A stretch of 30,370 bases of DNA from a virus. Positions 1 to 21,284 of this stretch are shown in pieces. The position numbers and the translations under genes were made by a program. Below the pieces are notes generated by a model. It saw only the letters and a list, made by a program, of their open reading frames with translations, had not been told where the DNA came from and did no database searches. The DNA lies in IMG/VR virus record IMGVR_UViG_3300017782_000121, positions 1-30,370 of that record; one strand, written 5' to 3'. Position 1 is the first letter of the stretch. Every line of letters begins with the position of its first letter.

Positions 1-552
1 CTTAAGTTTCAATACAACGCAACTACAGGCGTAATTGTTAATGTTATTGGCGGTGGTGACACTGAAGAAGAAATGGTTGCTAATGAAGGTCCTGTAATGG
101 AAGGTCATCTTCCAGGAGTTATAGATGCAGATGCGGCTCCTCTACACGCGGCAATGATTCACAGAACTTATGATTCAGGTGAAAAAGCAGATTATTCAGA
201 AGACTTAGGCACAACAGATTCAGAAGGTGCCGCAGAAACTTGGGAACACGTATGGAACAACAACATGGGTTTACTTGCACAAATTTGGAATTTAGAAACA
301 ATCAAATATGTTGACAATGCAATAGTAATGCCAGAGTTTAGAACACACGGAACAACAGAAGCACAATTTACAGACAGTATTACAAGTCAAGTAGCGGCTT
401 GTGACACAGAATTAGCAAGAGCTGACGTGTACACAGACGATGAAAAAACAGCCATCACAGCACACAAAACTTTCCTAGAAGGAATAGCAACAAAGTATGC
501 TGGTGTATCTTTTTGGAAAATTCCTTTTCCATCACAACCAAACTTTAAGTAA
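1..552 (+). CDS. Hypothetical protein, 5'-truncated by window edge, paralogue of the next gene
   Basis: The reading frame is open from the first base of the window, so the gene starts upstream; 183 residues are visible. An internal ATG at 73 is not taken as the start because the residues before it (LKFQYNATTGVI) align with LKFAVNEATGLV at about residue 47 of the following protein. The two proteins also share a C-terminal pattern: a W..HVWN-like segment, KY+D, a P-x-FR-x-H segment, C..EL, EKTAI, and a final WK-x-P-rich tail. About 45 N-terminal residues are probably missing. No enzyme motif, signal peptide or membrane segment is visible. The neighbours (glycosyltransferases, then fibre genes) suggest a role linked to the virion or tail fibre, but this is inference only. 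Confidence 0.8.
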   Translation, partial: LKFQYNATTGVIVNVIGGGDTEEEMVANEGPVMEGHLPGVIDADAAPLHAAMIHRTYDSGEKADYSEDLGTTDSEGAAETWEHVWNNNMGLLAQIWNLETIKYVDNAIVMPEFRTHGTTEAQFTDSITSQVAACDTELARADVYTDDEKTAITAHKTFLEGIATKYAGVSFWKIPFPSQPNFK

Positions 553-583
553 TCACTTTTAGTCCACACTCATTCTAACTAGC

Positions 584-591
584 AATAAATA
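584..591 (+). promoter_or_regulatory. Late-promoter-like motif AATAAATA
   Basis: This is an exact match to NATAAATA, the T4-type late -10 element. It lies 9 nt before the ATG at 601. With T4 geometry, transcription would start near 597, leaving a leader of only a few nucleotides. The motif sits between the arms of a 6-bp inverted repeat, AACTAG (577-582) and CTAGTT (595-600). Confidence 0.5.
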
Positions 592-600
592 TTTCTAGTT

Positions 601-1266
601 ATGGAAGGTTTGCGAGATCAATTAAATAAATTCCCGTTCGAGATGGAAATTCCTGACGAACCTTACCTTGATAATTTCAGTCAAAACAAATCACAAACAG
701 CATATTACGTTGGCGATAGATATCTAAAATTTGCAGTTAACGAAGCCACAGGACTTGTTGGTGAATGTTTGTGGAGAGCACCTACATTAGAACTGTTGGA
801 AAAAAGAATATGTCATCCAGAACCAGGTCATTATGTAATCACACTTGATGCAAAAGAAAATCCTTGGGAAGCATCTTACATGACAAACACATATCAACAC
901 GAACCAGTTGCTAATTATGAAGAAAATGTTGGACAACTTGACAGTGAAGGCAATCCAATTTTATGGGATTACTCTTGGGGTCATGTTATAAATCAAATTT
1001 ACTACATAAACGATTTAAAATACATTGACGGAAAGTTTGTAAAACCAGCATTCAGATTTCACCAACACACCAACGAAACAGTTTGGAAAACTGTTGCAGA
1101 TCACATAGAAATGTGTACAAAAGAATTAGAAAGATTGGTATATCAACCAGAAGAAAAGACAGCAATTGAAGATTGCAAAGCAGGCTGGATCGACATAAGA
1201 GATAATTTTCAACACGTGCATCATTGGAAACTAAAATACCCAGATATGCCATTAATAAAACCATAG
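601..1266 (+). CDS. Hypothetical protein, paralogue of the preceding gene
   Basis: This 221-residue protein is not assigned to a named family. It resembles the preceding gene along its length, sharing the segments YLKF..NEATG, a tryptophan-rich centre, LKYIDG, FVKPAFRFH, C.KELE, EKTAI and a closing HHWKLKYP. The pair therefore looks like a tandem duplication that has diverged strongly. The protein is rich in aromatic and acidic residues and shows no signal peptide, membrane helix or catalytic motif. The ATG at 601 follows a late-promoter-like motif and has no clear Shine-Dalgarno. The gene precedes the glycosyltransferase-carbamoyltransferase group, so a structural or fibre-associated role is possible but not shown. 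Confidence 0.8.
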   Translation: MEGLRDQLNKFPFEMEIPDEPYLDNFSQNKSQTAYYVGDRYLKFAVNEATGLVGECLWRAPTLELLEKRICHPEPGHYVITLDAKENPWEASYMTNTYQHEPVANYEENVGQLDSEGNPILWDYSWGHVINQIYYINDLKYIDGKFVKPAFRFHQHTNETVWKTVADHIEMCTKELERLVYQPEEKTAIEDCKAGWIDIRDNFQHVHHWKLKYPDMPLIKP

Positions 1267-1298
1267 AATCACTATTATAATCACACAAAAAGTTAATC

Positions 1299-1306
1299 TA
1301 TAAGTA
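1299..1306 (+). promoter_or_regulatory. Late-promoter-like motif TATAAGTA
   Basis: The site differs from TATAAATA at one base. It lies 10 nt before the ATG at 1317 in the only sizeable gap upstream of the glycosyltransferase operon. It could drive the three-gene unit 1317-5079. No Shine-Dalgarno is visible between the motif and the ATG. Confidence 0.35.
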
Positions 1307-1316
1307 ATTGTATCAA

Positions 1317-2270
1317 ATGAACACAGAACAAAAAAGACCTAAAGCATTTTTACTTAACGGAGGAATGGGAAGAATTATTTCTGCTATTCCTGCCTTAGAA
1401 AAATATCAAGAAGAAGGAAATGATCCAAATTTTATTATTGTTATTGAAGGAGTGTGCGACATATTAAAAGGTCATCCAACATTAGATTCAAAAACATATG
1501 ATATGTATCATAAAAATTTATTTCATACAAAATTAGTTAACATGGATATTGTAAGTCCTGAACCATACAGAGTACATGAATATTTTAATCAAAAATGTAA
1601 TATTGCTCAAGCATTTGATGTATTAATAAACAACAAAGGTATTAGAGATTTACCTAAACCAACATTGGTATTAAACAAAGAAGAATTAATTGCTGGAAAA
1701 AAAGCAATAGATGACACAAAAGAAAAATTAAAAAAAGAAAAAGTTGTTATTATTCAACCTTTCGGAAGAGCAATACAACAAATAGATGGTTCTTTTGTAG
1801 ATAAAACAAACAGAAGTATTGAGTTTTTTAATTTAAAAAATATTATTAAAAAATTACAAGAGAAAGACTTTGCAGTTATGTTAATGGCTGAGTTTGGAAT
1901 TGATTTTAAAGATGCTGGATTTCCAGACGAAGTAGCAATGCCTGAAAAAGTAGAATTAAGACAATGGGCGGCAATAATAAAATATGCTGATCATTTTTTA
2001 GGTTGTGATTCTTTAGGACAACACATGGCTTACAGTTTAGATACACCCGCAAGTGTTGTGTTTGGTGCTACATATCCAGAAAACACATCATATGCTAAAT
2101 CAGAAAAATTTAATCATATAGACCTAGGACAAATGACACGTGAATATGATCCAATTAGAATAACAATGGACGAAAGAATTAGTAGAAAACAAGAACAAAT
2201 AATGACCATGACTCCTGAGATAGAGGATTATGTTGTTGCCGCTTGTAATGGTGACCCAATAGAGGAATAA
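1317..2270 (+). CDS. GT9-like (heptosyltransferase-type) glycosyltransferase, copy 1
   Basis: This 317-residue protein is predicted to transfer a sugar, by family most likely ADP-activated heptose, to an acceptor. The N-terminus has a GGMGRIISAIPALEKY segment, matching the G-x-G-D/R and hydrophobic-P pattern that opens GT9 enzymes. Near residues 217-260 it has ADHFLGCDSLGQHMAYSLDTP followed by FGATYPENTS (split here for length), which corresponds to the GT9 C-terminal donor site (GNDSGPMHLAAALGTP..FGPT-like). The GT9 histidine position is kept. The ATG at 1317 is preferred to an upstream TTG at 1308. The gene is followed after 2 nt by a carbamoyltransferase and then by a paralogue, so the three probably act together. 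The exact donor and acceptor are unknown. An inactive or repurposed GT-B fold cannot be excluded. Confidence 0.72.
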   Translation: MNTEQKRPKAFLLNGGMGRIISAIPALEKYQEEGNDPNFIIVIEGVCDILKGHPTLDSKTYDMYHKNLFHTKLVNMDIVSPEPYRVHEYFNQKCNIAQAFDVLINNKGIRDLPKPTLVLNKEELIAGKKAIDDTKEKLKKEKVVIIQPFGRAIQQIDGSFVDKTNRSIEFFNLKNIIKKLQEKDFAVMLMAEFGIDFKDAGFPDEVAMPEKVELRQWAAIIKYADHFLGCDSLGQHMAYSLDTPASVVFGATYPENTSYAKSEKFNHIDLGQMTREYDPIRITMDERISRKQEQIMTMTPEIEDYVVAACNGDPIEE

Positions 2271-2272
2271 AA

Positions 2273-4102
2273 ATGGACGATATAGAACAATATAACAAAA
2301 CGGGATACATTGCCGCAATTGCCAGAGGACACAATGCAGGTGTTTGTCTTTTAAAAGACGGTGAAGTAGTTTTTTCAATTGAAGAAGAACGTTTATCTAG
2401 AAGAAAATATGACGGTGGACCATATGCATCAATGGTAGAAATATTGAAGTACACAGATAAAATTGATTACCTCGTTGTTGCTCACACACAATCTTTAGAA
2501 GATAGATCAACAGGCAGAGTTGATTATTCAGGTGACGATGTTTATACAGGTATGGCAAGAAAACTTGGATTAATTGATAGACACGTACAAGAAATAAAAC
2601 ACCCTCAAGTAATTGATTTAGCACACATTCATCACAAACTACATGCCGCCTGTGCTTTTTATAGATCAGGTTTTGATAAAGCAGTGGCAGTAATTGTTGA
2701 CGGTGCTGGAACTTTTATTCCAATTAAAAATAGTATCTCAGGTGAAATGACAGTGTTTGAAGTTGAAAGTATTTTCAGTTGCGATTATCCTAATGATATT
2801 TTCGCACTGTACAAACATTATGGTACGGGAGAAGCAAGTCCAGGAGCATTTTATCCAGACTTTGCTTCTGATTCCATAGGTGAACCGGGCAAAACACACC
2901 AAGCATTATTCACAGACAGAGCAGGGATTGTAAAAGTTTACGAAGCAGTTACACAGTATTGTGGATTTTCGGCAATCGAAGCAGGAAAGACAATGGGATT
3001 ATTTCCATATGGTAAACCAAACGACCTGGTTCCTAAACTTTTTAAGAAAGAAGGATACTATTCTTTATCAGATAGAAATTTTATTATTCCAACATATCCT
3101 AATGCCTCAATAGTTAACAGTGGACTTTATCCTTATATTGATGAAAACCCTGCGTCAGAGAAAAAAGATGATTGGACAACATTACAAAACAGAAGAGATT
3201 TAGCATATGCAGTTCAAACGGAATCACAAAAAGAATGTTTAGATTTAATCTACAAAGCAGTACAGTTAAGTGGTTGTAAAAATGTTGTATTCTCAGGAGG
3301 ATATGGACTAAACTGTGTTGCCAATTACTATTATTTAGAACAATTAAAGAAAGACGGTATAAACTTTTATGCTGAACCAGTGTCAAACGATGCAGGGACG
3401 GCAATGGGAGCGGCAATGTTGTTTTATTACAGTCTTACACAGTCTAAAGAAAAGAAAGTAGACGAACCAACACTTTATCTTGGACCAAAAAGAACATACA
3501 CAACAGATCAAATTGAAAACGTATGCAATCAAGAAGGTGTAGAACTTACAGATGCAACCAATGAAGAAGTTGTAAAAATTATTACTGATAAAAATATTGT
3601 TTCAGTGTTCCAAGGAGCCAGTGAAAATGGACCTAGAGCATTGGGTAACAGATCAATATTATACGATCCAAGAGATCCAGATGGTAAAGACCATGTAAAC
3701 AAAGTAAAACATAGAGAATACTTCAGACCTTTTGCTGGAACTATATTGCACGAGTATGTGCATGAATGGTTTGATTTAAGAGGTATGGACGAAACTCCGC
3801 ATATGATGTATGCAGTGAATTGTCAACCAGGAATAGAAGAAAAAATACCTAGCATTATTCACGTTGACGGAACTTGTAGAATACAATCTGTGAAAAGAGA
3901 ACAAAATCCTTTGTATTATGACCTAATAAAAGAATTCCATAAACAAACAGAATGTCCTATAATTTTTAATACATCATTTAATTTAGGTGGAGAACCATTA
4001 GTAGAAACATTAGAAGATGCTGTAAGAACATTAATACACAGCGAAATAGAATATTTGTTTTTGCCTGAATATAACAAATTAATAAAGGTAGCAAACAAAT
4101 GA
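2273..4102 (+). CDS. NodU/TobZ/HypF-type carbamoyltransferase
   Basis: This 609-residue protein has the full length of the carbamoyltransferase family, which transfers a carbamoyl group from carbamoyl phosphate via carbamoyl-AMP to a hydroxyl of a sugar or nucleoside. The N-terminal Kae1-like domain shows GHNAGVCLLKDGEVVFSIEE-like residues (19-38) followed by ERLSRRK, and the metal-binding histidine cluster HIHHKLHAA (118-126). Later come VVFSGGYGLNCVAN (about 338-352), the NDAGTAMGAA segment, PRALGNRSILYDPR from about 454, and NTSFNLGGEP near 565, all typical of the C-terminal half. The stop overlaps the next start as ATGA, indicating translational coupling. Placement between two GT9-like genes points to a glycan acceptor. 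Phage carbamoyltransferases acting on hydroxymethylated DNA bases are a known alternative. Confidence 0.93.
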   Translation: MDDIEQYNKTGYIAAIARGHNAGVCLLKDGEVVFSIEEERLSRRKYDGGPYASMVEILKYTDKIDYLVVAHTQSLEDRSTGRVDYSGDDVYTGMARKLGLIDRHVQEIKHPQVIDLAHIHHKLHAACAFYRSGFDKAVAVIVDGAGTFIPIKNSISGEMTVFEVESIFSCDYPNDIFALYKHYGTGEASPGAFYPDFASDSIGEPGKTHQALFTDRAGIVKVYEAVTQYCGFSAIEAGKTMGLFPYGKPNDLVPKLFKKEGYYSLSDRNFIIPTYPNASIVNSGLYPYIDENPASEKKDDWTTLQNRRDLAYAVQTESQKECLDLIYKAVQLSGCKNVVFSGGYGLNCVANYYYLEQLKKDGINFYAEPVSNDAGTAMGAAMLFYYSLTQSKEKKVDEPTLYLGPKRTYTTDQIENVCNQEGVELTDATNEEVVKIITDKNIVSVFQGASENGPRALGNRSILYDPRDPDGKDHVNKVKHREYFRPFAGTILHEYVHEWFDLRGMDETPHMMYAVNCQPGIEEKIPSIIHVDGTCRIQSVKREQNPLYYDLIKEFHKQTECPIIFNTSFNLGGEPLVETLEDAVRTLIHSEIEYLFLPEYNKLIKVANK

Positions 4103-5079
4103 GTAAAAAAACAGCAATATTTTTAAACGGTGGCGCTGGTAGAATGATAAGTTCTATTCCAGCAGTAGAAAAATACCTAGAAGAAAATCCTGAAAAGGAC
4201 CCTATACTAGTTTGTGAAGGCGGAACTGATGCTTTTAAAGGTCATCCTAAATTGTATTTTAGAGCATATGACAGTTGGCATAAAAATTTATTTCAAGAAC
4301 TTCTTAAAGAAAGAGAATTAATTAGTCCTGAACCGTACAGGATTTGGGAATATTACAATCAAAAATGCAGTCTTGCTCAAGCATATGATATCGCTATTAA
4401 CAACAAAGGCATTAGAGATTTACCAGCACCAACTATAAGATTAAGCAAAGAAGAATTATTAATGGCAAGAAAAATGATTGCTGAAGTAAAAGATAAAACA
4501 GGCAAAAACAAAATTGTTGTAGTTCAGCCATTTGGAAGAGGTGCTCAACCTGAAAATTTAACTGAAAAACAAATGAAAGAAGGCAAACAGCCAGAAATTA
4601 CAGATGTTACTGGCAGAAGTATAGAACTAAAAAATATTTGGAGTCTTGTACGTAAATTATCTAAGAAGTACGGAGTTATGATGATGAGTGAATTCCCATT
4701 AGAATTTAAAAATCATATGTCTGCTCCAGTGGCAACTCCAATGAACGTACACATAAGAATATGGATGGCAGTCATAAAACAAGCAAATCATTTTGTTGGT
4801 TGTGATTCAGTTGGACAACATCTTGCTTACGCATTCGACGGCACTGCAACGGTGCTGATAGGATCCACATATCCCATAAACACATCATTTCCTGAAGCAG
4901 ATAATTTTGATATTATTGATCTTGGATTAGATGATAGAGTTTATTCACCTATAAGAATTACCTCAGATGAGTTTAGTGATAGGCTGAATGAAGGTATTAT
5001 GGCTATGGATGACCAGAAAGAAGACAGTATTATCAGGTCAGTTGAAAAGATGCTTAAACACAGCAAAAACAAGCAGTAA
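4099..5079 (+). CDS. GT9-like (heptosyltransferase-type) glycosyltransferase, copy 2
   Basis: This 326-residue protein is a clear paralogue of the gene at 1317. It shares FLNGGAGRMISSIPAVEKYL at the N-terminus, a central SPEPYR..EYYNQKC segment, NNKGIRDLP, VVQPFGRG and the C-terminal donor-site region VGCDSVGQHLAYAF near residue 230, followed by GSTYPINTS. It differs mainly by a lysine-rich insertion after VVQPFGRG. It starts inside the stop of the carbamoyltransferase (ATGA). Two diverged copies in one operon suggest successive transfers to different positions or acceptors rather than dosage. Substrate specificity cannot be read from sequence. Confidence 0.72.
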   Translation: MSKKTAIFLNGGAGRMISSIPAVEKYLEENPEKDPILVCEGGTDAFKGHPKLYFRAYDSWHKNLFQELLKERELISPEPYRIWEYYNQKCSLAQAYDIAINNKGIRDLPAPTIRLSKEELLMARKMIAEVKDKTGKNKIVVVQPFGRGAQPENLTEKQMKEGKQPEITDVTGRSIELKNIWSLVRKLSKKYGVMMMSEFPLEFKNHMSAPVATPMNVHIRIWMAVIKQANHFVGCDSVGQHLAYAFDGTATVLIGSTYPINTSFPEADNFDIIDLGLDDRVYSPIRITSDEFSDRLNEGIMAMDDQKEDSIIRSVEKMLKHSKNKQ

Positions 5080-5117
5080 TACCCAAAATACAGTAGTAAT
5101 ACAATAGTTCTAGAATA

Positions 5118-5125
5118 GGTAAATA
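5118..5125 (+). promoter_or_regulatory. Late-promoter-like motif GGTAAATA
   Basis: The site has one mismatch to NATAAATA and lies 23 nt before the ATG at 5149. An AAGGA Shine-Dalgarno lies between them (5135-5139). A 7-bp inverted repeat, TAGAATA (5111-5117) and TATTCTA (5141-5147), brackets motif and ribosome binding site. Confidence 0.3.
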
Positions 5126-5148
5126 CACTATAATAAGGATTATTCTAT

Positions 5149-5583
5149 ATGTTTGATGTATCAAGATTTTTTGGAAAAGGTGACAGAAATACTCTGTTAA
5201 TGAAGAACGGGCTAAACCTGTCTTACAATGGTCCATATTCTGTAGTAGAAGAAGGCATGATTTTAGACCAATGGCACGTGAACACATTTACCACAGCAGA
5301 ATACACAATCAGTGTAGACTATGACACAAACAATAAAGAAATTTTAAAAGTACTTGTATCAGCAAGTCCAAATCAAAGCAGTCTATCAATATATGGTAGA
5401 TCAAATCTAGGGAATAAATTAATCAAGATCGATAGCGAAGTTAACAATTCATATGTTCGAATCAAGATAAACCCAGCAGACAAAAGTGCAACAGAAAAAT
5501 ACACTGGTTCTAAGATTATCTTTGGTGCAACATATTTTGCTACATTGAATGCTTTGGTTGGAGGTACGCAAGTAACAGAATAA
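5149..5583 (+). CDS. Small virion structural protein (fibre region)
   Basis: This 144-residue protein opens with MFDVSRFFGKGDRNTLLMKN and continues with alternating polar and hydrophobic stretches (YTISVDYDTNNKEILKVLV, SLSIYGRSNLG, KIIFGATYFATL) that suggest an all-beta domain. I recall similar small proteins beside structural genes in T4-like marine phages, but I cannot name a family. It has an AAGGA ribosome binding site about 9 nt before the ATG. It lies directly upstream of two fibre genes, so a tail-fibre or virion role is inferred. No catalytic residues or signal peptide are visible. Confidence 0.7.
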   Translation: MFDVSRFFGKGDRNTLLMKNGLNLSYNGPYSVVEEGMILDQWHVNTFTTAEYTISVDYDTNNKEILKVLVSASPNQSSLSIYGRSNLGNKLIKIDSEVNNSYVRIKINPADKSATEKYTGSKIIFGATYFATLNALVGGTQVTE

Positions 5584-5589
5584 TAAATA
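5582..5589 (+). promoter_or_regulatory. Late-promoter-like motif AATAAATA
   Basis: This exact NATAAATA match overlaps the stop codon of the preceding gene and ends 13 nt before the ATG at 5603. The predicted start near 5595 would leave a leader of about 8 nt without a Shine-Dalgarno. It probably serves the fibre operon 5603-15220. Confidence 0.5.
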
Positions 5590-5602
5590 TGGATATAACA
5601 CA

Positions 5603-7465
5603 ATGGCAGTAGTTTTTAAACCTTTCGAAACAGATTACGGATACAAGTCACCCGGATTTACAGTTGATGTAGACGGAAATGTTATAGTACGTACTATTAC
5701 GAATACATACACACCGCCAGTAGTTCCGGTTGCACCAGATTTTAACATCAATGAAACTGCAGGAGCATTCACAGTACTAAACAAAGGCACAGCAGTTGTT
5801 GGTGATAATCCAACAATTACTGTAGAAAGAGGATCAACTTATACTTTTGTCTTAGACACGTCTAGTCTTGCTTTTAATATCTACAAACCAGATGTTAATA
5901 ATATAACTGTTCCAGGAGAACTATACAATGAAGGTTTATCTCATACCAACACAGTTACAGGTTTAGATTTAACATCAGGCACTTATAACTTTCCGCAAAC
6001 TTGGCAACAACAACAATCGGGTTATAACAGAACTGCTCAAATAGTTGTTCCAGATACAACTAACACACCATTAGCAGGAAAGAAAATACCAGTTGTAATT
6101 TCATTACACGACAAAGGATTTAATCAAGCAAATGGTATTACAAATGTTAATTTTATCACTGACAAAATTTTAATTGCACCACAAGGTTACAGCAACGAAT
6201 GGAACGTAGGATATCAAACATCAAAAGCAGATGATATTGCTTTTATTGATTCTATTATTGCTAGTTTCAGTTTATACGATAACGTAGATACTAGAGAAAT
6301 CACAATAATAGGATATGGAAATGGTGCACAATTGGCTTTACAATATGCAAACTATTCACAGAATGCATCTATAAAAAATATTATAACATTTAACGGATTA
6401 TTAAACAGTGATCAATATTTTTCAACTGACCACAGTTTTTATAATTATACATTAGACCCTCAAAACCAAGATAATTCAACAATTATAAATTGGACAAGTG
6501 TTACACCACTGGGTAATAGAAATGTATTAATGTTTAACGGTAAAGATGATTTACAATTTCTTTATAATGGTGGAGTCATTGATGGACAAACACTTTACAG
6601 TGCAGAAGATACTGTGTATGGAATGGCAAAAGCCGATTCTACAATTGAAAATAAATTAACAGTACCAACTAATGAATCTGATGGAAGTGAAAGTTATTCT
6701 TATGATAACGAGTCAATAAGAATGTATGCATTCACAGGAGTTGCTAACAACTTTACAACATATCAAAACTCTATTAGAACAAGAATTACAGATGCTATTG
6801 TTACAAGTACATATCTTGCAATACCGGTAGCAACAACTTTAACAGATGCAGAAGCTCAAGGCAAACAATCAGGAACTTTAACTTATGCTGTTCCGGTTGA
6901 CTCTCCAGATTCACTATTTTATGCAGACTCAGACGGTGTACCTTATGCTACACTTACTGTTGCTCAACCAAGTATTATTGGTGCAGGTGTTTTCAGTTCA
7001 ATATTAGACACTGGTGATTTATTAGCAGAAGGAGTTAATGCACAAATAAGATTAAAACCTACAGGAACAGGAACAGTTACAATTAATCCTGCCACAGTAG
7101 GATCAATTACCAACATGAATGTTAATGCACTAAATTTATCAACTAGTGGTCAGGTTAGTTTAACACCTAATGCTGATGTCACAATAAGTCCACAAGCAGG
7201 TGGAACACTTACATTGAGACCAACAGACGTTGGTGTTGTAGATAATGTTACAATAGGGTCTGTAATACCAAGAAATGGAACCTTTTCAACATTGAATTCT
7301 TCGCAAGGAACGTTAAATAACACTACAATAGGACTAACATCAGCAACGTCGGCGGCTTTTACAGGAGCAACTGTAACAAGCGATCCAACAAATGCTAATG
7401 ATGTTACTAAAAAGCAGTATGTCGATAACACAGCCACAGTGTTAGCGATAGCATTAGGAGTATAG
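5603..7465 (+). CDS. Tail-fibre-type virion protein with an esterase-like domain inserted in a cupredoxin-like domain
   Basis: The protein has 620 residues. Residues 1-45 open in the style of marine phage structural proteins. Residues about 65-125 (NPTITVERGSTYTFVLD onward) look like the first half of a cupredoxin-like virion domain, and residues about 420-455 (SGTLTYAVPVDSPDSLFY) like its second half. Between them, residues about 140-400 resemble a PHB-depolymerase/feruloyl-esterase (LpqC-like) alpha/beta hydrolase: a PVVISLHD oxyanion-strand segment (163-170), DDIAFIDSII, a nucleophile-elbow position GYGNG (237-241) and FNGKDD..YNGG (311-324). The usual nucleophile serine is glycine 239, so the canonical esterase is probably inactive. 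The C-terminus has fibre repeats (NVTIG..P.NGTFSTL, NNTTIG) and a DPTNANDVTKKQYVDN ending typical of fibre proteins. It is followed after 6 nt by the giant fibre gene. Confidence 0.8.
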   Translation: MAVVFKPFETDYGYKSPGFTVDVDGNVIVRTITNTYTPPVVPVAPDFNINETAGAFTVLNKGTAVVGDNPTITVERGSTYTFVLDTSSLAFNIYKPDVNNITVPGELYNEGLSHTNTVTGLDLTSGTYNFPQTWQQQQSGYNRTAQIVVPDTTNTPLAGKKIPVVISLHDKGFNQANGITNVNFITDKILIAPQGYSNEWNVGYQTSKADDIAFIDSIIASFSLYDNVDTREITIIGYGNGAQLALQYANYSQNASIKNIITFNGLLNSDQYFSTDHSFYNYTLDPQNQDNSTIINWTSVTPLGNRNVLMFNGKDDLQFLYNGGVIDGQTLYSAEDTVYGMAKADSTIENKLTVPTNESDGSESYSYDNESIRMYAFTGVANNFTTYQNSIRTRITDAIVTSTYLAIPVATTLTDAEAQGKQSGTLTYAVPVDSPDSLFYADSDGVPYATLTVAQPSIIGAGVFSSILDTGDLLAEGVNAQIRLKPTGTGTVTINPATVGSITNMNVNALNLSTSGQVSLTPNADVTISPQAGGTLTLRPTDVGVVDNVTIGSVIPRNGTFSTLNSSQGTLNNTTIGLTSATSAAFTGATVTSDPTNANDVTKKQYVDNTATVLAIALGV

Positions 7466-7471
7466 AAAAGA

Positions 7472-10400
7472 ATGGCAAAAAAACGTATTAATACATACAA
7501 ATTTACACCAGGGATACCACAATCTGGAAACCTTTATCCTAATGCATGGGCTCAAATCAATGCCAACAAAGAATGGTTGAAAGATGAATCCAATGCTTAC
7601 ATAGATTACAAAATTACACAAGACACAGCGGCAGATTTATATCCAAGTGCATCATTAAGATATCTTAACAACAGAGAATATATAAAAGCAGAAGTGGCGG
7701 CATGGGTTGCTGTACAAGTTGCTGGAAATATTTCACCGTTTGCAGGTTACACAAAAACTGCAACACAAATTAAAAATGATGTAGAAGGAGTTATACAAGC
7801 GGCATATCTTGATATGAGATATGGCGGTAATGAAAATATTAGAACAACATCACAAAGTTATTATGTAGACGGAGTGCTACAATTAGCGGCGGCAGGAGAA
7901 CCAGAATTAGCATATTGGACAAAAGCCAAACAGATTATAGACTTATACATTTTTACAGGTTTAGGATATAGCAGTATCAACGGAGATGGTTTATCACAAA
8001 ACACGTCAGGGTCAAATGCAGAAGCAGGTGCCAAGACAGGATTTGCGGCAAACATGGCAGTAATTGATAATGTTGTAGACAATGGTATTTTAAATTTACC
8101 AGCACTTGTAAGTTCGGTATATGTATTTGCTAACTTTACATACGAACCTTACCTTTGTGAAAGAGATATGGGTTACAACATTGATGGTATTTTAACAGAT
8201 TTAAGATACGGTGGAAATCAACAATCAAGATACAATGCTGGAACTTATTGGGTAGGCACAGTATCAGTTTTGAGTGGAGATAGACAACCTGAATTAGCAG
8301 TAAAAAATGAAATAAGAAGTATTATTAACAATTATGTAATACCAGGTACTGCTTACTCGTCAAGACAATCACCGGTGGTAACACAACAAACACTAGTAGG
8401 TACACCAGGTGAAGCAGGAGCCACAACAAGAGTGACTACTTTGTTTGGAATAGTTACAGATGTGATTGAAAATGGATTAGATAATTTACCAGCTCTAGTT
8501 AGCAACGGAATTTCAAGTGTAAAAATTCCTGAAAGAGTTGAATTAGCAGAATTATTATTGATTACAAACACTACTTCTAATGCAGTTTTATACACGTTCA
8601 ATGATCCTGTAAAAGGAGCCACAACAACTTATCAAAGAGAATATTCTACAGATACATCAAACCCAACGGCGTTTATTGATCCAGATTTTCCTAAAGCATA
8701 TCATGGCAATGACACAATCACAACTATATTTTTAAATGCTGATACATCTACAGATGGTGCAACAGACCAATTACAAATTTTTGTTGAAGATGATGAAATA
8801 AGAACACGTCCACATGATTTTGGAACAGATGCAATTGAAAGATTGAGAGTTGCACAACCAGAGTCAATGCTTGATGCTGACTTTGAATATGGTCTTCAGC
8901 CAACGAAGTGGCAAGCAATTGCAACACAAAGAGGTTATCCATCAATTTATGAAGTACCGGGTACAGACTTTGACATAGCATTAGTAACATCAGACGCTTC
9001 AGCAGGAACATCAGGTATTGGTTCATCTTTAATCACAGTTACAACAATTGGACCACACAATTTTGAAGAAGGTCAACCATTTACAATAACAGGTTTTGAT
9101 AACTCAGTGGCAGGTGCAAGTAGAGCCGCAGGATCATTTGTGGTTAACACAGTGCCAACTTCATTGACATTTACATATTATGGAAAAGCAAAAGTTGGAA
9201 CAGTAAATCCTACAACAATTTCTACAAACTTTACTCAATTGAGACAGGGAGACTTTTACACAGGAGCGGCAATTGGATTTCCATCATTCAGTATAGATTC
9301 AAATGGTTCATCAGGAAATTTTGTAACAAGTTTAGCAACACTATCAGGATCAACAATTTTACCATACACAGGTGTGCAACCTGAAATAGGAGCACCACTT
9401 ACAGGAACAGGAATTCAAACAGGTACACAAATTACAGCAGTTAACGGATCAGGTGGAGCATTAGCGTCTCCAACAGTAACAGGAGATTATTCATCAGGTG
9501 CAACATCAATTACTGTGGCAGACTCGGCAGGAATTATTCAAAACTCTGTGATTGATAGAGGTGACGGATTTGCAGTAACAATTATTAATGTTGTAGGAAA
9601 TGAATTAACATTAGGATCACCTTTGAATCAAGATTTAATTGGTGATATTTCTCAATACACAAATTTAGCAGGTGTAAATTATACTCCAGCAGGACAATTA
9701 GGAAGATTTGACATATTCAGAGTTGGCGGAGCATACTCTGTATCATTAGTTACTAATGGACAAGTTGGATCAGGACAAGATTATGCAGTGGGTGATGCCA
9801 TTGTTGTAAGTGGTACAGTATTAGGTGGAGCAACACCAGCCAATGATGCAATAGTAACTGTAGAATCAGTAGACACTGGTGGAGAAATTTTAACAGCATC
9901 AGTTACAGGTACAGCATTTACAGGAACAGGTACAGCATCAGCAGTAACACCAGTATTCCAAGGTGGTGCAGGAACAGGTGCTCAAATAAATGTAACAAAA
10001 AATGCAGGAACTTATTCAGTAGCATTAAACAGTCCTTCATACACAAACGTACCAACATCTGCATATGCAGGTGGTAACGGTACAGCGGCAATTTTTGACA
10101 TTGATGTAGATGCAGGTGCATACACAGTAGCAGTAGACTCAGCAGGATCAGGATACATTGTTAACGATATTATAAGAGTTGCAGGATCTACATTTGGTGG
10201 AACAGGTACAAACAATTTAGATATTAGAGTAACTGCTGTAGGCGGATCAGGAGAAGTTCAAACAATTTCTTCGGCAGGTACAGCACCAGATCAACAAATA
10301 AGTTATGTTTCACCAATATTTACAACAGCAAGTGCTGGAGGTACAACAGCAAACTTCACAGTAACTAGAACAGGTACAACATATTCTGCAGTAGTAACAA

Positions 10401-13400
10401 CAATAGGAAATGGTTATTCAGCAACAGACACTCTTGTGTTTGCAGGAACACAACTTGGTGGAGCAACAACAGCTAATGATGCAACACTAACTGTTGATTC
10501 TGTTGATGGTAACGGTGGAATTTTAACTTTTTCAGTAGCAGGTACGGCAGTAAATTCACAAACATATCCAAATGTAAGTTCAGGTTCAAATCTTTCAGGA
10601 TCGAATGCAACTTTTGATGTTGCAATTTCATCAACAAGTTATACAGTAACTATAAACACTGCTGGTGACGATTACGGTGTTGGGCAAACACTTACAATTC
10701 CAGGAACAAGTTTAGGTGGAGCAACACCAGCCAATGATGTATCAATTGCAATCGACACTATTGTTAGTGCAGGAGCAAGTGGAATTGCTACAATCACAGC
10801 AACAGGTACAGCGGCATTAGAAGGTACATCAGGATACAAAGTAGGAGATCAATTATTTGTAAGTGGATCTGATTTAGGTGCGGCAACACCAACCAATGAT
10901 GCTTATGTAACTATCAGCACAGTTGATGGAAATGGTGGTATCACAGCATTAGGAATCACAGGAACAGGTACAGCGGCTAACGTGGATTATGCATCAGTTG
11001 TTTACTCTACTAATAACTCAGGTGCGGCGGCAGTTATAGACATCAACAGAACAGCCACAACATACACAGCAACATTTACAAATACTGGTTCATCATTTGC
11101 TGGAGCAGATACAATTACAATTTTAGGAACAGCAGTTGGCGGATTAACACCAGCCAACGATGTAACAATCACAGTTGATACAGTGACAGCAGGTGCAATA
11201 GCAACTTACACTGTAACAGGTACAGCAGTTAACACACAAACATTTACAAATGTAAACAAATCAAACAGAACACCTTCAGGACTAACAATAGATGTAACAT
11301 TGAATTCAGGTTCATACACATTGGCAGTTAATAATGGTGGTAGCGGACATGCACCAGATCAAGTATTTAAAATAGTAGGTACAGATGTGTTTGGTGGTTC
11401 ACCTGCAAATGATTTAACATTTACAATTGCTGGTATAGATGCTGTTTCAACAGGATCAGTAACTTCAGTGTCAGCGGCAACAGGAACAGCAAACACAGGA
11501 ACAGGTAATGCATTGAATGTTCAAGGCACAAACAGAACACCTATTGGTGTTGGTGCTCAATTCAGTGTTACAAGAACTAATGCAACAGATTCATCAACTG
11601 ATTACTCAGAGTGTATACAAATACAAGACGGTACAAACTATGCTGTAGGTGACAAAATTATAATTTCAGGATCAAGTTTAGGTGGAACAACACCAGCCAA
11701 TGATATAACTGTAACAGTACAAGGAGTTACTTCTTTTGGTGGTGTGGTAAGCAACACACACGTGGGAACAGCAATTGGTGGAACAGGATTAAGTGTTTAT
11801 TCTTCAGTAACAATTTCAGATCCAGTTACACAATCAATTCCATTAACTTCAACAATTTCTTATTCAGCATTGGCAACAATGAGAGTTAACTTTACTACAC
11901 CACATGGACTTGTTCCAGGTAATGCATTCTTAGTTGTAATAATATCTGATGATGGATCAAACAATCACATATTGGCTTCAGGACCGTTCTTAGCAACTTC
12001 TATTCCATCACCGACTAGTTTAACTTATCAAGTTAGATCACCAGGTGCTATCACAGATGCAGGTTGGCAAGGATCAATATATGGCAGACCAGATTCATTC
12101 TTTATACACAGACCATTCGATGGTGGTGTTCAATTAGGAACAGGTGGTCCGGCACACGGTGCTCAAGCAATACGTCAATCTAAAAAATATATTAGATATC
12201 AATCAGGTAAAGGTTGTATGTACACAACTGGTGCTCTATTTGCTCCAAGTTATGACATTCTAAACATTACTGCTAATGGAATCAATGCAGGTTCGACAAT
12301 CACTGTAACAACAGATGACGTTGATCATAATTTACAAGTTGGTGCTATTATTAGATTAGTGGGTGTAGCAACATCAGGTTATGATGGTGAATACACAATT
12401 ACATCAATTACAAATGAAAGAACATTTACAGTTATTGCACAAATTACTTTAGGAGGATCAACTCCTGAATTTACAGATCAACCACAAGTATCATTGTATA
12501 AATGGAATGGTGCAACTGTAAGATCAGGAATATTTGATGATCAAAACGGAATTTTCTGGGAATATGATGGACAAAACACAAATGCTGTACAAAGAACTGC
12601 CACAAGACAATTGGCAGGAACAGTTACAGTTACGCCTAATTCAAATTCTGTATCAGGTACAGGAACAAGATTCAGAGAACAAGTTAAAGCAGGTGACAGA
12701 GTTGTAATAAGAGGTATGACTCACGTGGTATCAAGTGTTACCAACAACACAACAATGAGTGTTACTCCAGATTACAGAGGTGTTAATACATCAGCAGGTG
12801 TTAAAATGTGTGCTGTGGTAGACAAAAAAGCAAAACAATCAGAATTTAACAAAGATGTATTAGACGGAACAGGACCAAGTGGATACAAATGGGACGTGTC
12901 TAAGATGCAGATGATTGGGATACAGTTTTCATGGTACGGGGCTGGATTTATCGATTGGATGACTAGAGGTCAAACAGGTAACTTTATTTTCGTACACAGA
13001 ATGAGAAATTCAAACGTTAACACAGAAGCATTTATGAGAACAGGTAACCAACCTGTACGTTATGAAGTGACCAACGAAGGTCCAGGTGCAAGACTACTTG
13101 AAAATATGGATACAACACAAACTACAATTACTGTTGTAGATGCATCATTCTTCCCAACAGGAGGAGGTACTGTGTACATTGATAACGAAATTATAACATT
13201 TACAGGTATCACAGGTGACACATTAACAGGTTGTACTAGAGCGGCACAACTTACAAACTTTGCGGCAGGTGCCACAAGAAACTATACAGCAGGTGTGGCG
13301 ACGGCACACTTTAGAAACACTGGAGTTGTGTTGATATCCAACACAGCATCTCCAATCATATCACACTGGGGATCAGCATATCTAACAGATGGTAACTTTG

Positions 13401-14506
13401 ACGAAGATAGAGGATATCTATTCAACTACTCAGGTCAAGGATTACAACTATCAACAATTAGACAAACTGTATTCTTAATGAGATTGGCGCCTTCAGTATC
13501 CAATGCCTTAACAGGTGACTTGGGAGACAGAGATCTACTTAACAGAGCCCAGTTGCTACTAGACGGTATTGAGATTACCACAGAGCCAGTTGCGGCAGGT
13601 GGCGTACAAGGTCAGTTGGTTGTACAAGGAATTATTAATCCACAAAACTATCCAATTGATCCAGCAGACATAGGTTGGACAGGACTACAAGGTACAGCAC
13701 AAGGTGGACAACCAAGTTTCGCCCAGATTGCTCCGGGTGGTTCAGTTAACTGGAACGGTGGTGCATCAATCACAACTCAGACAGCAAATACTCAAGCAGA
13801 AATGACATCTTCATCTACTCACTGGTTTAACTTGAGTGGTAACAGAAACTATATGTATTTCTTGGAAGCAGAATGGGAAGGCAAAGGACACGTGGTAGGT
13901 ATGAAAGTAACCTCAGCACAATTCCCTAGCAACACAGTGGTTACACAGATTAGTGATAGTGGTTCTTATTATTTTGTAAGATTTTCAAACAGACACACAG
14001 GTGTGTCAGGCGGTGATGCTGTGAACTTTGCATTTGGCGGTGACTTTGCAAGTACTAACTACTTGTTCTTTGATCCAACAACATGGGAAGCCTCAGGCGC
14101 TGTGGCAGGTACTGAAGTGGATACAGCAACAACAACTGAATTTCCACCAGGTACAGTTGTACAAAGTGTACAAGCAAAAACAGCATTTGGTTCAACAGAA
14201 TACTACAGAGTTGACTTTAACCAATCATTCAATGGAACGATTGCCGCGGCAAGCAGTATATCATTTAACTTTGGTCAACCACCTTACGCACAACCAGGTG
14301 AAACTATTTTCTCTTTCATTGCCCAACCGGGAGAAAGAGCAACACTTGCCTTAGACAAGATCAAAGCCTTAACTAACACAACACTAGGTGGACGTGGTAC
14401 GTTCCCTAATGGTCCAGACGTGTTGGCAATCAACGTATTTAGAACTGCTGGTACAGGTGATGTAGCAGGAACAGTTACACTGCGTTGGTCTGAAGCACAG
14501 GCTTAA
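7472..14506 (+). CDS. Giant repeat-built tail fibre or adhesin-like virion protein
   Basis: At 2344 residues this is the largest gene in the window. Residues about 100-345 hold two tandem copies of a helical module with the core DLRYGGN or DMRYGGN, each ending in NLPALV. Residues about 740-1450 are glycine/threonine/serine-rich beta repeats, with at least seven recognisable copies of an LGGATPAND-like motif. The C-terminal part (about 1530-2344) is less repetitive and holds conserved-looking segments such as IRQSKKYIRYQSGKG and IGIQFSWYGAGFIDWM, which I associate with large structural proteins of marine T4-like phages. No signal peptide or enzyme motif is seen. The role is inferred to be host contact. 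The stop overlaps the start of the next small ORF as TAATG. Confidence 0.85.
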   Translation: MAKKRINTYKFTPGIPQSGNLYPNAWAQINANKEWLKDESNAYIDYKITQDTAADLYPSASLRYLNNREYIKAEVAAWVAVQVAGNISPFAGYTKTATQIKNDVEGVIQAAYLDMRYGGNENIRTTSQSYYVDGVLQLAAAGEPELAYWTKAKQIIDLYIFTGLGYSSINGDGLSQNTSGSNAEAGAKTGFAANMAVIDNVVDNGILNLPALVSSVYVFANFTYEPYLCERDMGYNIDGILTDLRYGGNQQSRYNAGTYWVGTVSVLSGDRQPELAVKNEIRSIINNYVIPGTAYSSRQSPVVTQQTLVGTPGEAGATTRVTTLFGIVTDVIENGLDNLPALVSNGISSVKIPERVELAELLLITNTTSNAVLYTFNDPVKGATTTYQREYSTDTSNPTAFIDPDFPKAYHGNDTITTIFLNADTSTDGATDQLQIFVEDDEIRTRPHDFGTDAIERLRVAQPESMLDADFEYGLQPTKWQAIATQRGYPSIYEVPGTDFDIALVTSDASAGTSGIGSSLITVTTIGPHNFEEGQPFTITGFDNSVAGASRAAGSFVVNTVPTSLTFTYYGKAKVGTVNPTTISTNFTQLRQGDFYTGAAIGFPSFSIDSNGSSGNFVTSLATLSGSTILPYTGVQPEIGAPLTGTGIQTGTQITAVNGSGGALASPTVTGDYSSGATSITVADSAGIIQNSVIDRGDGFAVTIINVVGNELTLGSPLNQDLIGDISQYTNLAGVNYTPAGQLGRFDIFRVGGAYSVSLVTNGQVGSGQDYAVGDAIVVSGTVLGGATPANDAIVTVESVDTGGEILTASVTGTAFTGTGTASAVTPVFQGGAGTGAQINVTKNAGTYSVALNSPSYTNVPTSAYAGGNGTAAIFDIDVDAGAYTVAVDSAGSGYIVNDIIRVAGSTFGGTGTNNLDIRVTAVGGSGEVQTISSAGTAPDQQISYVSPIFTTASAGGTTANFTVTRTGTTYSAVVTTIGNGYSATDTLVFAGTQLGGATTANDATLTVDSVDGNGGILTFSVAGTAVNSQTYPNVSSGSNLSGSNATFDVAISSTSYTVTINTAGDDYGVGQTLTIPGTSLGGATPANDVSIAIDTIVSAGASGIATITATGTAALEGTSGYKVGDQLFVSGSDLGAATPTNDAYVTISTVDGNGGITALGITGTGTAANVDYASVVYSTNNSGAAAVIDINRTATTYTATFTNTGSSFAGADTITILGTAVGGLTPANDVTITVDTVTAGAIATYTVTGTAVNTQTFTNVNKSNRTPSGLTIDVTLNSGSYTLAVNNGGSGHAPDQVFKIVGTDVFGGSPANDLTFTIAGIDAVSTGSVTSVSAATGTANTGTGNALNVQGTNRTPIGVGAQFSVTRTNATDSSTDYSECIQIQDGTNYAVGDKIIISGSSLGGTTPANDITVTVQGVTSFGGVVSNTHVGTAIGGTGLSVYSSVTISDPVTQSIPLTSTISYSALATMRVNFTTPHGLVPGNAFLVVIISDDGSNNHILASGPFLATSIPSPTSLTYQVRSPGAITDAGWQGSIYGRPDSFFIHRPFDGGVQLGTGGPAHGAQAIRQSKKYIRYQSGKGCMYTTGALFAPSYDILNITANGINAGSTITVTTDDVDHNLQVGAIIRLVGVATSGYDGEYTITSITNERTFTVIAQITLGGSTPEFTDQPQVSLYKWNGATVRSGIFDDQNGIFWEYDGQNTNAVQRTATRQLAGTVTVTPNSNSVSGTGTRFREQVKAGDRVVIRGMTHVVSSVTNNTTMSVTPDYRGVNTSAGVKMCAVVDKKAKQSEFNKDVLDGTGPSGYKWDVSKMQMIGIQFSWYGAGFIDWMTRGQTGNFIFVHRMRNSNVNTEAFMRTGNQPVRYEVTNEGPGARLLENMDTTQTTITVVDASFFPTGGGTVYIDNEIITFTGITGDTLTGCTRAAQLTNFAAGATRNYTAGVATAHFRNTGVVLISNTASPIISHWGSAYLTDGNFDEDRGYLFNYSGQGLQLSTIRQTVFLMRLAPSVSNALTGDLGDRDLLNRAQLLLDGIEITTEPVAAGGVQGQLVVQGIINPQNYPIDPADIGWTGLQGTAQGGQPSFAQIAPGGSVNWNGGASITTQTANTQAEMTSSSTHWFNLSGNRNYMYFLEAEWEGKGHVVGMKVTSAQFPSNTVVTQISDSGSYYFVRFSNRHTGVSGGDAVNFAFGGDFASTNYLFFDPTTWEASGAVAGTEVDTATTTEFPPGTVVQSVQAKTAFGSTEYYRVDFNQSFNGTIAAASSISFNFGQPPYAQPGETIFSFIAQPGERATLALDKIKALTNTTLGGRGTFPNGPDVLAINVFRTAGTGDVAGTVTLRWSEAQA
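7771..8500 (+). repeat. Tandem duplication of a helical module inside the giant fibre gene
   Basis: Two in-frame copies encode about 115 residues each. Copy 1 (about 7771-8106) has GVIQAAYLDMRYGGN and ends in ILNLPALV. Copy 2 (about 8156-8500) has DGILTDLRYGGN and ends in LDNLPALV. Both also share AEAGA or GEAGA and EPELA or QPELA segments. Confidence 0.75.
9790..11760 (+). repeat. Array of beta-repeat modules in the giant fibre gene
   Basis: Copies of an LGG(A/T/L)TPAND motif followed by a valine-rich strand begin near nt 9821, 10452, 10712, 10877, 11132, 11385 and 11678, with a degenerate copy near 10195. Spacing is mostly about 255-290 nt, with one short unit of about 165 nt. Confidence 0.8.
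9821..10739 (+). repeat. Perfect 28-nt direct repeat, 891 nt apart, with a near-copy downstream
   Basis: The 28 nt at 9821-9848 and at 10712-10739 are identical by eye. A third copy at 11678-11704 matches with one G-to-A change. The offsets (891 and 966 nt) are multiples of three, so recombination between copies would keep the reading frame. Confidence 0.8.
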
Positions 14507-14628
14507 TGTATCAACTCATCAAGCATATATGCGAGACGTGTGGGTGTGAACAACACTGCAAAAGATCGTGTGGAGAATGTCTAGATTGTCCAGACTGTCG
14601 TTGTAAGGAATGTATTAAAAAAGACTGA
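14506..14628 (+). CDS. 40-residue cysteine-rich mini-protein
   Basis: A short ORF of 40 codons starts at the ATG that overlaps the stop of the giant fibre (TAATG) and ends 4 nt before the methyltransferase start. It encodes ten cysteines and two histidines, arranged as repeated C-x2-C pairs (C9/C12, C22/C25/C28/C31, C33/C36), with lysines at the C-terminus. This suggests a compact zinc-binding or disulphide-rich protein. The overlap indicates translation by termination-reinitiation. Tight packing on both sides and the ordered cysteine spacing argue that it is real rather than a chance frame. No named family is recognised. Its expression is unproven. Confidence 0.6.
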   Translation: MYQLIKHICETCGCEQHCKRSCGECLDCPDCRCKECIKKD

Positions 14629-14632
14629 TAAG

Positions 14633-15220
14633 ATGAATTATAATAGGCTTCGTGTACTGGAAAGAGAAAACCCACACAAAGAACCTGAACGATGTTTTGT
14701 TTTACAAAAATTAATCGAAAAACACAATTTAAAAAAAGGCGCTGAACTAGGAGTTAGAAGCGGCGAACTTTATTATTTTTTGTTATCTCATTGTCCTGAA
14801 CTTACCTTGATTGGTGTAGATTTGTACGAAAGTCAACCAAATGGAAGTACTGATCCTCAACGAAAAAGAACATATGATCAACCTCATATGGGGTTTAGTT
14901 ATGATCACTCAATGTATCACAATTTCATAAAAGAGTTACAAAATGAATTTGGAACAAGAGCTCAATTTATAAAAGATTGGACTTCAAATGCGTCTTTATT
15001 AATTGAAGATAATTCATTAGATTTTGTGTTTTTAGATGCTGATCATGGATTTGATGGATGTTCGCAAGATATTGAAAAATGGACACCAAAAGTTAAATCT
15101 GGTGGATTTATAACAGGACATGACTTCTGGTTGTCAGGAGTAAAAAAAGCAGTACAAAAATATTTTGGCAACGATTATAAGAAATATCCAGATCACGTCT
15201 GGATACATCAAAAAAAATAA
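14633..15220 (+). CDS. Class I SAM-dependent methyltransferase
   Basis: The 195-residue protein has a Rossmann-type methyltransferase fold. Motif I is GAELGVRSGE (36-45), the acidic end of strand 2 is in IGVDLYE (60-66), the DFVFLDADHGF strand-4 segment is near residue 130-140, and PKVKSGGFITGHDF follows near 152-165. This resembles the Methyltransf_24 class, which often acts on sugars or small molecules. It lies at the end of the fibre operon, 4 nt after the cysteine-rich ORF, and ends 1 nt from the convergent cupin gene. Methylation of a glycan or fibre component is plausible given the neighbours, but the substrate is unknown. No DNA-methyltransferase motif (DPPY or PC) is visible. Confidence 0.8.
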   Translation: MNYNRLRVLERENPHKEPERCFVLQKLIEKHNLKKGAELGVRSGELYYFLLSHCPELTLIGVDLYESQPNGSTDPQRKRTYDQPHMGFSYDHSMYHNFIKELQNEFGTRAQFIKDWTSNASLLIEDNSLDFVFLDADHGFDGCSQDIEKWTPKVKSGGFITGHDFWLSGVKKAVQKYFGNDYKKYPDHVWIHQKK

Positions 15221-15221
15221 A

Positions 15222-18674: not shown

Positions 18675-18690
18675 GTAAGTAATTATATGA

Positions 18691-21257: not shown

Positions 21258-21264
21258 ATACATA

Positions 21265-21272
21265 TATTTATC
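21265..21272 (-). promoter_or_regulatory. Late-promoter-like motif GATAAATA for the minus-strand operon
   Basis: On the minus strand this is an exact NATAAATA match ending 7 nt before the gp14 ATG (21257). The predicted start would fall about 2 nt before the ATG, leaving no room for a Shine-Dalgarno. It pairs as an inverted repeat with the plus-strand motif at 21277-21284. Confidence 0.55.
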
Positions 21273-21276
21273 GGAC

Positions 21277-21284
21277 GATAAATA
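21277..21284 (+). promoter_or_regulatory. Late-promoter-like motif GATAAATA for gp13
   Basis: This exact NATAAATA match lies 17 nt before the ATG at 21302, with an AAGGAAAA ribosome binding site at 21290-21297. Together with the minus-strand motif it forms a near-palindromic two-headed promoter with only 4 nt between the elements. Confidence 0.6.

Follow-up and report, generated by a model that had tools for sequence, protein, structure and literature searches.

Two GT9-like glycosyltransferase genes flanking a carbamoyltransferase gene: a conserved phage trio and its possible role in virion glycosylation

What might a virus make with two related glycosyltransferases and a carbamoyltransferase encoded between them? 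The question is raised by IMG/VR virus record IMGVR_UViG_3300017782_000121, analyzed here over its whole length of 30,370 bases (hereafter, the window), which carries three head-to-tail open reading frames (ORFs):

1317 to 2270, plus strand: GT9-like glycosyltransferase A (GT A; PHROG 8954), identified from the ORF, Pfam, PHROG, and an AlphaFold2 (AF2) model; ATG start
2273 to 4102, plus strand: NodU/TobZ-type O-carbamoyltransferase (CT) of 609 residues, identified from Pfam, PHROG, and solved relatives; GPRALGNR present
4099 to 5079, plus strand: GT9-like glycosyltransferase B (GT B; PHROG 8954), identified from the ORF, PHROG, and tree position; its subfamily is not sister to that of GT A

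The original prediction, made from sequence alone, described this trio as two diverged GT9-like paralogs around a full-length carbamoyltransferase, with a 2-nt gap between GT A and CT and an ATGA overlap between CT and GT B. Each part of that description holds. All three frames are open, and both junctions are read in the sequence; a TTG extension of the GT A frame is possible from 1308. An alignment of GT A with GT B spans 312 columns and shows 48% identity; both match the same PHROG 8954 (419.8 and 439.9 bits, respectively), a family without assigned function. The Pfam GT9 model (PF01075) matches GT A at 24.7 bits, above its cutoff of 22, and GT B at 13.8 bits, below it. Both Pfam halves of the CT are matched (Carbam_trans_C, PF16861, 198.7 bits; Carbam_trans_N, PF02543, 82.6 bits); its solved relatives are 7xb6, GdmN, and TobZ, and HHxxH and GPRALGxRS are retained relative to 7xb6 and GdmN. 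On these domains and motifs, the CT is classed as a member of the NodU/TobZ O-carbamoyltransferases. Rfam and tRNA scans returned no matches.

The trio is real and conserved, and the interpretation first offered for it, a dedicated pathway for a carbamoylated heptose disaccharide, is partly supported. The explanation that we favor, plausible but tentatively held, is that these genes form a late-expressed phage glycan module, in which GT9-fold enzymes and the CT would put a carbamoylated heptose-type sugar on a virion protein.

The first line of evidence is structural. A model of GT A built with AF2 from a 64-sequence alignment (predicted local distance difference test [pLDDT] score 91.4; predicted template modeling [pTM] score 0.90) has a GT-B fold and is closest to solved GT9 enzymes, in agreement with the GT-B fold posed beforehand as a test. 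This result applies to GT A, to which GT B is 48% identical. In a Foldseek search of the PDB, ranks 1–30 are taken up entirely by GT9 enzymes (WaaF, a Veillonella GT9, TibC, and WaaC). VIA-align Z scores for the same model are 23.0 for 3tov, 21.3 for WaaF, 19.9 for TibC, and 18.4–18.8 for WaaC; three NDH-complex entries score 17.7–18.2, and the remaining matches listed score at most 11.6. Among the WaaC residues that we take to form the donor site (K192, T187, T188, E222, M242, D261, T262, G263, and H266) or to be catalytic (Asp13), K192, D261, T262, and H266 align with R166, D231, S232, and H236 in 64/64 GTs of the sequence alignment.

The coupling of GT to CT is also found outside the window. 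The best 80 of 505 confirmed relatives were taken as viral loci and, together with five annotated cyanophages and the window, make up 86 sources, all of which except the window were chosen by their GT, with no GT-free control. A CT lies downstream of the GT in 86/86 sources and within 50 nt of it in 66, and in the other 20 one or two genes of a single family stand between them. A second GT 3′ of the CT is present in 22 of the loci as well as in the window. Scanning a collection of bacterial and archaeal genomes yielded seven confirmed GT relatives, all on contigs of metagenome-assembled genomes, and a CT follows the GT in each of the seven, two of which (L100 and L103) look like copies. The GT family is almost confined to phages.

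The family that intervenes between GT and CT comprises proteins of ~280–320 residues with GCS[FY] and D.HP motifs, which by eye are SGNH-hydrolase-like (examples are L058:10952-11872 and L059:10998-12791). Two members were scanned and gave no Pfam match over cutoff. No HldE was found in 15 of the 20 records with this arrangement.

The GT tree groups the GT A copies together and the GT B copies together, in two well-supported clades that are not sisters, and a recent tandem duplication of the GT was rejected as improbable on this ground; the CTs of trio phages form one clade in the CT tree. Because of this combination of non-sister GT clades and a single clade of trio CTs, the trio probably arose in a single assembly event that joined two old GT subfamilies. 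The alignments give no clue to a division of labor between GT A and GT B: only four positions separate the groups across ten A/B pairs, whose N halves are 51–61% identical and C halves 45–52%. The predicted disaccharide is left without support, given that single-GT phages also have heptose genes and that GT A and GT B represent old, non-sister subfamilies.

The proposed sugar donor depends on a second set of genes, which lies, as predicted, ~10 kb from the trio and on the opposite strand:

15222 to 15599, minus strand: cupin (PHROG 7851) of the heptose gene run, from Pfam and PHROG; the same kind occurs in cyanophage cassettes
15592 to 16419, minus strand: HldD-like ADP-heptose 6-epimerase (TIGR02197, 248.6 bits; cutoff 274.6)
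16404 to 17006, minus strand: PHROG 274 protein (labeled "DNA endonuclease V" there), perhaps 2-oxoglutarate (2OG)-Fe(II) oxygenase-like; not GmhA; no Pfam or NCBIfam match
16984 to 18243, minus strand: HldE-like fused heptose-7-P kinase/heptose-1-P adenylyltransferase, by best family match
18240 to 18755, minus strand: NUDIX hydrolase, in the same overlapping gene run as HldE

Both HldE and HldD of the window retain the Escherichia coli motifs that were checked (GxxGxxG and YxxxK in HldD), and both score below NCBIfam equivalog cutoffs. For the survey of relatives, a record was counted as HldE-positive if TIGR02199 matched it at 100 bits or more; four records with matches of 51–88 bits (L033, L050, L072, and L084) were therefore scored negative, and L057 (102 bits, 95 kb from the GT) positive. 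So defined, an HldE-type gene is present in 40/80 viral records, 3′ of the GT in 40/40 and at most 16.5 kb away in 39. HldD, which like GmhA and GmhB was sought in 50 of the 80 records, occurs in all 40 HldE-positive records and is absent or weak in the 10/10 HldE-negative records searched.

The association is strongest for the trio itself. The tail sheath stabilizer gene gp15 is present in 59/80 records; exclusion of L058 and L063, whose contigs end inside the CT (both HldE-negative), leaves 15 trio and 42 single-GT records, the former not including the window or L006 (identical in both GTs, no gp15). Frequent occurrence of the trio without heptose genes had been named as the outcome that would speak against the prediction, and none of the 15 trio records with gp15 lacks HldE. 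A Fisher p of 1e-4 for HldE versus trio overstates independence, the trio records being one clade in both trees.

Named phages give a similar picture. A GT match is found in 53 named records; in 23 of these (about nine distinct phages) it covers at least 80% of the query, and all 23 also have an HldE-type match. None of the 30 records with short GT matches (29 Vibrio and one Aeromonas) is among the HldE matches listed (60 of 72). In the five GT-bearing cyanophages that were opened, GT and CT are followed, directly or later, by genes for a nucleotidyltransferase, a PfkB kinase, a short HAD-like protein, and a cupin, with the epimerase on the other strand. The nucleotidyltransferase gene begins at the CT end in P-SSM2, S-CAM1, Sf-FS3, and S-CAM3 (unannotated ORF), and in S-SSM7 four genes stand between the two.

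Some annotations around these heptose genes deserve separate mention. Two cyanophage genes annotated as "phosphoheptose isomerase" (L005:19024-19368 and L003:23708-24043) look like small HAD phosphatases, and the P-SSM2 copy has a DIDGTIC motif, a weak match, below cutoff, to the capsule-phosphatase model TIGR01689, and no SIS match; judging from these features, the annotation is likely wrong. P-TIM68 (L096:5664-9427) has a gene annotated as transketolase-like directly before its heptose kinase, epimerase, and nucleotidyltransferase, which could possibly be its own supply of sedoheptulose-7-phosphate. A HAD-family protein like the GmhB-like one of L082 is encoded beside GT–CT on the minus strand of a record without an HldE match (L060:12900-13571).

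The third line of evidence is the position of both gene sets among virion genes and sites resembling T4 late promoters:

73 to 552, plus strand: paralog of the gene at 601–1266, probably cut by the contig end (relatives ~218 residues)
585 to 591, plus strand: ATAAATA, T4-late-promoter-like, 16 nt 5′ of the ATG at 601
601 to 1266, plus strand: fiber-region protein, function unassigned; family conserved 5′ of the GT (profile search, model)
5149 to 5583, plus strand: protein 3′ of the trio; Cadherin-like beta sandwich match below cutoff
5603 to 7465, plus strand: fiber-region protein (PHROG 2576, unknown function)
7472 to 14506, plus strand: 2344-residue virion structural protein (PHROG 5838)
18691 to 20100, minus strand: gp15 tail sheath stabilizer
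20100 to 21320, minus strand: virion protein in gp14 position (PHROG 11591); true start probably near 21260
21265 to 21271, minus strand: ATAAATA, 5′ of the run gp14–gp15–NUDIX–HldE–HldD–cupin

The T4 late promoter is quoted as TATAAAT in PMC3037559. On both strands of the window together, ATAAATA occurs seven times (585, 5583, 21278, 23709, 27002, and 28217 on the plus strand; 21271 on the minus strand), always at most 60 nt 5′ of a virion or fiber-region gene: five sites precede recognized virion genes (gp13, the gene in gp14 position, the sheath gene, and two tube-like genes), and two precede the genes at 601 and 5603. TATAAATA itself is not found in the window. The shorter TAAATA is depleted overall (23 found vs. 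44 expected), yet it stands 8–60 nt 5′ of 9/25 tested gene starts, whereas 20,000 random placements gave counts from 0 to 5; within that count of nine, the cupin site is doubtful, and the gp13 (21302) and gp14 (21260) starts were picked after viewing the sequence. One TAAATA, at 5120, precedes the gene at 5149. Sigma-70-like sites in positions 1–19000 are at chance level (79 found vs. 77.5 expected).

Across the loci, late-promoter-like sites precede two 601-family genes in 12/17 and 21/40 cases and the 5603-type gene in 22/27, as compared with 11/86 for GT A, 1/91 for CT, and 0/23 for GT B; inside the GT–CT block, 7 are found versus 53 expected. A late promoter of the trio's own was considered and rejected, there being no plus-strand ATAAATA between 591 and 5583. 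Because the sites precede 601-family genes and are scarce within the GT–CT block, the trio appears to be expressed as part of the late unit that starts with gene 601; HldE and HldD would belong in the same way to the gp14–gp15 unit.

The gene at 601 is itself a regular neighbor of the GT. A member of its family lies at most 1.5 kb 5′ of the GT in 64/80 eligible sources; by profile search, S-CAM1 and S-CAM3 each have a member immediately 5′ of the GT, P-SSM2 has one two genes 5′ of it, and the matches in S-SSM7 and Sf-FS3 are weak. A tblastn search with 601 found nothing in named phages, missing the S-CAM1 and S-CAM3 copies. A structural model of the protein (pLDDT 95.2) resembles the S-CAM1 and P-SSM2 proteins. 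Distant GTs also occur among tail genes: in Aeromonas phage HJ05 the GT gene follows a gene with a weak tail-fiber match and is two genes before the sheath gene, and in Vibrio phage K479 it precedes a tail protein gene. Aeromonas and Vibrio are not among the CT matches, and the HJ05 record has no CT match.

The kind of phage in question was predicted to be a marine T4-like one. Genes of the gp13–gp15 type are present, in keeping with this, but the 1079-residue tail sheath encoded at 23759–26995 has its best matches in jumbo phages and not cyanophages (top matches Phosso, PA5oct-like, and Atu_ph07; 43–48% identity; best 15 of 2573 rows). A T4-type late-promoter-like motif is therefore seen here in a phage whose sheath, among those 15 rows, is closest to those of jumbo phages. 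A collagen-type acceptor for 2OG oxygenases was considered and discarded, the 2344-residue protein having no GXY run of eight or more.

The favored module would work as follows. HldE and HldD, within the late gp14/gp15 run, would supply ADP-heptose from heptose-7-phosphate provided by a host GmhA; the two GT9-fold transferases would then move the ADP-activated heptose-type sugar to a virion protein, and the CT would cap a hydroxyl of the transferred sugar. A virion protein is favored as the acceptor because of the late-promoter-like sites, the 601 family near the GT, and the distant GTs among tail genes; it would most likely be a tail fiber or its tip.

Several results weigh against this account. 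In the sequence alignment of the GTs, a gap stands opposite WaaC T187 and T188, Asp takes the place of E222 in most sequences, and hydrophobic residues replace M242 and G263; the position of Asp13 is an invariant Arg (R19) in 64/64 GTs, a pairing whose register agrees with the offset at which the structural alignment with WaaC starts and which rests on WaaC, the N-terminus of WaaF having aligned poorly. It is because of this replacement that the name "GT9-like" is used here instead of GT9 heptosyltransferase. Since the GT9 fold is combined with WaaC positions that are partly kept and partly changed, the modeled GT is best described as GT9-like with an altered active site. Sequence profiles by themselves align weakly with WaaC and WaaF (probability 8.9 and 4.1%, respectively). 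Among the counted single-GT records with gp15, 23/42 have no HldE match of at least 100 bits and 19/42 are HldE-positive, the records being fragments; the donor may therefore come from the host or may not be heptose. The GmhA-type domain SIS_2 (PF13580) is absent from the window and from the 50 records searched. GmhB-like proteins match strongly in 13/40 HldE-positive records and in 0/15 trio records, and none turned up among the window proteins scanned. Two phages, P-TIM68 and S-T4, carry heptose genes and are not among the 53 named GT matches. The late promoters are motif matches only, and no acceptor has been identified; the 601 model resembles tail-fiber assembly proteins weakly (best E 0.003), and no solved relative or fold was found for it among the families searched.

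Set against these points, the predicted link between the GTs and heptose retains a nearest fold among heptosyltransferases and the physical and phyletic association of GT–CT with HldE and HldD, and it is weakened by the many GT–CT pairs without HldE and by heptose genes without the GT. Co-occurrence, proposed as the check on that link, is seen in half of the viral records and in every counted trio, and fails in the majority of the counted single-GT records. The "dedicated pathway" is incomplete: HldE and HldD are matched with their motifs kept, though below the equivalog cutoffs, and its GmhA-type step is missing from the window and the 50 records searched.

The main rival explanation, which we consider unlikely, is modification of the host surface: the GTs and CT would add a carbamoylated heptose to host lipopolysaccharide (LPS) or another envelope glycan, thereby blocking superinfection or altering the receptor. 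The combination of heptosyltransferase and CT is a known route to carbamoyl-heptose in that setting, because the carbamoylated heptose of the Pseudomonas LPS core is attributed to heptosyltransferases and the putative carbamoyltransferase WapO, as described in PMC8005017. The phage system, likened to WapO here by description, differs in that WapO is a bacterial LPS enzyme, itself putative in that source, and the phage genes lie beside fiber genes. Pelagimyophages have rfaE and GTs in a host-recognition region, for which a change of the O-chain is suggested in PMC7029224, and a heptosyltransferase I annotated in the huge phage 1-SewaA, comparable by annotation, is read as serving host LPS synthesis in PMC10747093. 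On the other hand, the trio and heptose genes appear to be carried on late virion units beside fiber genes, and the distant GT of HJ05 sits in a tail cluster in a record without a CT match. Cyanobacterial LPS is described in PMC4390846 as lacking heptose and 3-deoxy-D-manno-octulosonic acid (KDO), so cyanophage GTs would have no native heptose core to extend, an argument that applies to the cyanophage relatives only.

The virion-glycan reading can be put in a fuller form, which is possible but doubtful as a whole: a viral protein-glycosylation system in which late-expressed heptosyltransferases with an Asp-to-Arg active site glycosylate tail fibers and the CT caps the product, the sugar being drawn from the host sedoheptulose-7-phosphate pool, such that the virions of the cyanophage relatives would bear a glycan that is not in host LPS.

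It is rather unlikely, though several of the results listed above would be expected of it, that the GTs use some other nucleotide sugar, with the heptose genes feeding a different transferase and the neighborhood shared for other reasons. The single-GT records without HldE, the heptose genes of P-TIM68 and S-T4, the missing GmhA-type domain, and the active-site changes relative to WaaC all point in this direction. Opposed to it are the nearest folds, which are ADP-heptose transferases by a wide margin, the HldE-type match in every named record with a long GT match, and the contiguous GT–CT–nucleotidyltransferase–kinase runs of S-CAM1, S-CAM3, Sf-FS3, and P-SSM2. The simplest reconciliation would be that phages bring HldE and HldD where the host cannot supply ADP-heptose, with the host giving heptose-7-phosphate.

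The CT family bears on a last possibility. GPRALGxR is present in 84/84 CT-family ORFs over 500 residues, and the positions of TobZ G421 and R423 (numbering counted by hand) are G and R in all 84, in contrast with C and T in the characterized 5-hydroxymethylcytosine (5hmC) carbamoyltransferase (GPRALCNT); a third position, W408, is V in the window CT and I in the DNA enzyme. No BLAST alignment longer than 300 residues links the CT family to that enzyme, which is remote in a tree whose outgroup branches are very long. DNA hypermodification, with the CT as a 5hmC carbamoyltransferase and the GTs as DNA glycosyltransferases, is accordingly set aside as highly improbable on residues, tree, and context: a known carbamoyltransferase of the same superfamily, probably of phage origin, does make 5-carbamoyloxymethylcytosine (PMC8670742), but two of the three residues tied to DNA modification in that source differ in the CT family, the promoter motifs are late-type, and none of the window ORFs that were scanned, a subset of the total, was recognized as a deoxycytidine monophosphate hydroxymethylase or a thymidylate synthase. 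Some relatives have unusual CT architectures: in S-RIM44 (L088:4998-6619) and S-SCSM1 (L089:4968-8550), the CT is split into two permuted genes with the C-terminal piece first, S-SCSM1 having two such pairs, and S-SSM7 has an additional short CT with the N domain only. The S-RIM44 CT lies beside a thymidylate synthase gene and was considered as a 5hmC case, but the neighbor carries the annotation ThyX, and GPRALGNRS is intact in the CT.

Among known systems, the LPS heptosyltransferases WaaC and WaaF (GT9) share with the phage GT the GT-B fold (253–269 aligned residues at the Z scores of 18.4–21.3) and, at the presumed donor site, an Asp–Ser/Thr–His motif. They differ in sequence (13–14% identity in the structural alignment), in the invariant Arg that replaces WaaC Asp13, and in context, the phage GT sitting in a fiber region with a CT. 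The autotransporter heptosyltransferase TibC acts on protein. Its fold is similarly close (Z 19.9 for 4rap and 19.7 for 4rb4, with ADP-heptose), but identity is 13%, and no autotransporter partner is seen for the phage GT. A genomic counterpart is the cyanophage set T4-GC 302–308 of P-SSM2 and S-SSM7, which likewise comprises a GT (302), CT (303), nucleotidyltransferase, kinase, HAD-like protein, cupin, and epimerase; it has one GT where the window has two, the heptose genes of the window lie ~10 kb away past fiber genes, and the sheath of the window, judged by the best 15 of 2573 rows, indicates a different phage lineage. A 2010 survey of cyanophages placed T4-GC 304, 305, 307, and 308 among co-occurring LPS genes and, in its discussion of them, left open whether they are functional or "stuffer DNA" (PMC3037559).

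CT and heptose/LPS genes in cyanophages were thus already described (PMC3037559, PMC7378029), and virion glycans are known in mycobacteriophages, as cited in PMC12619734; no proposal of virion glycosylation by a GT9–CT pair was found in the open-licence literature searched. The linkage of the GT to a CT, heptose genes, late-promoter-like sites, and fiber genes leads to a testable product, a carbamoylated heptose on the virion. PHROG 8954 gains a proposed role, with relatives available in the isolated phages P-SSM2 and S-CAM1. If this holds, a virus would be putting heptose on proteins, and a new layer would be added to phage–host recognition or protection.

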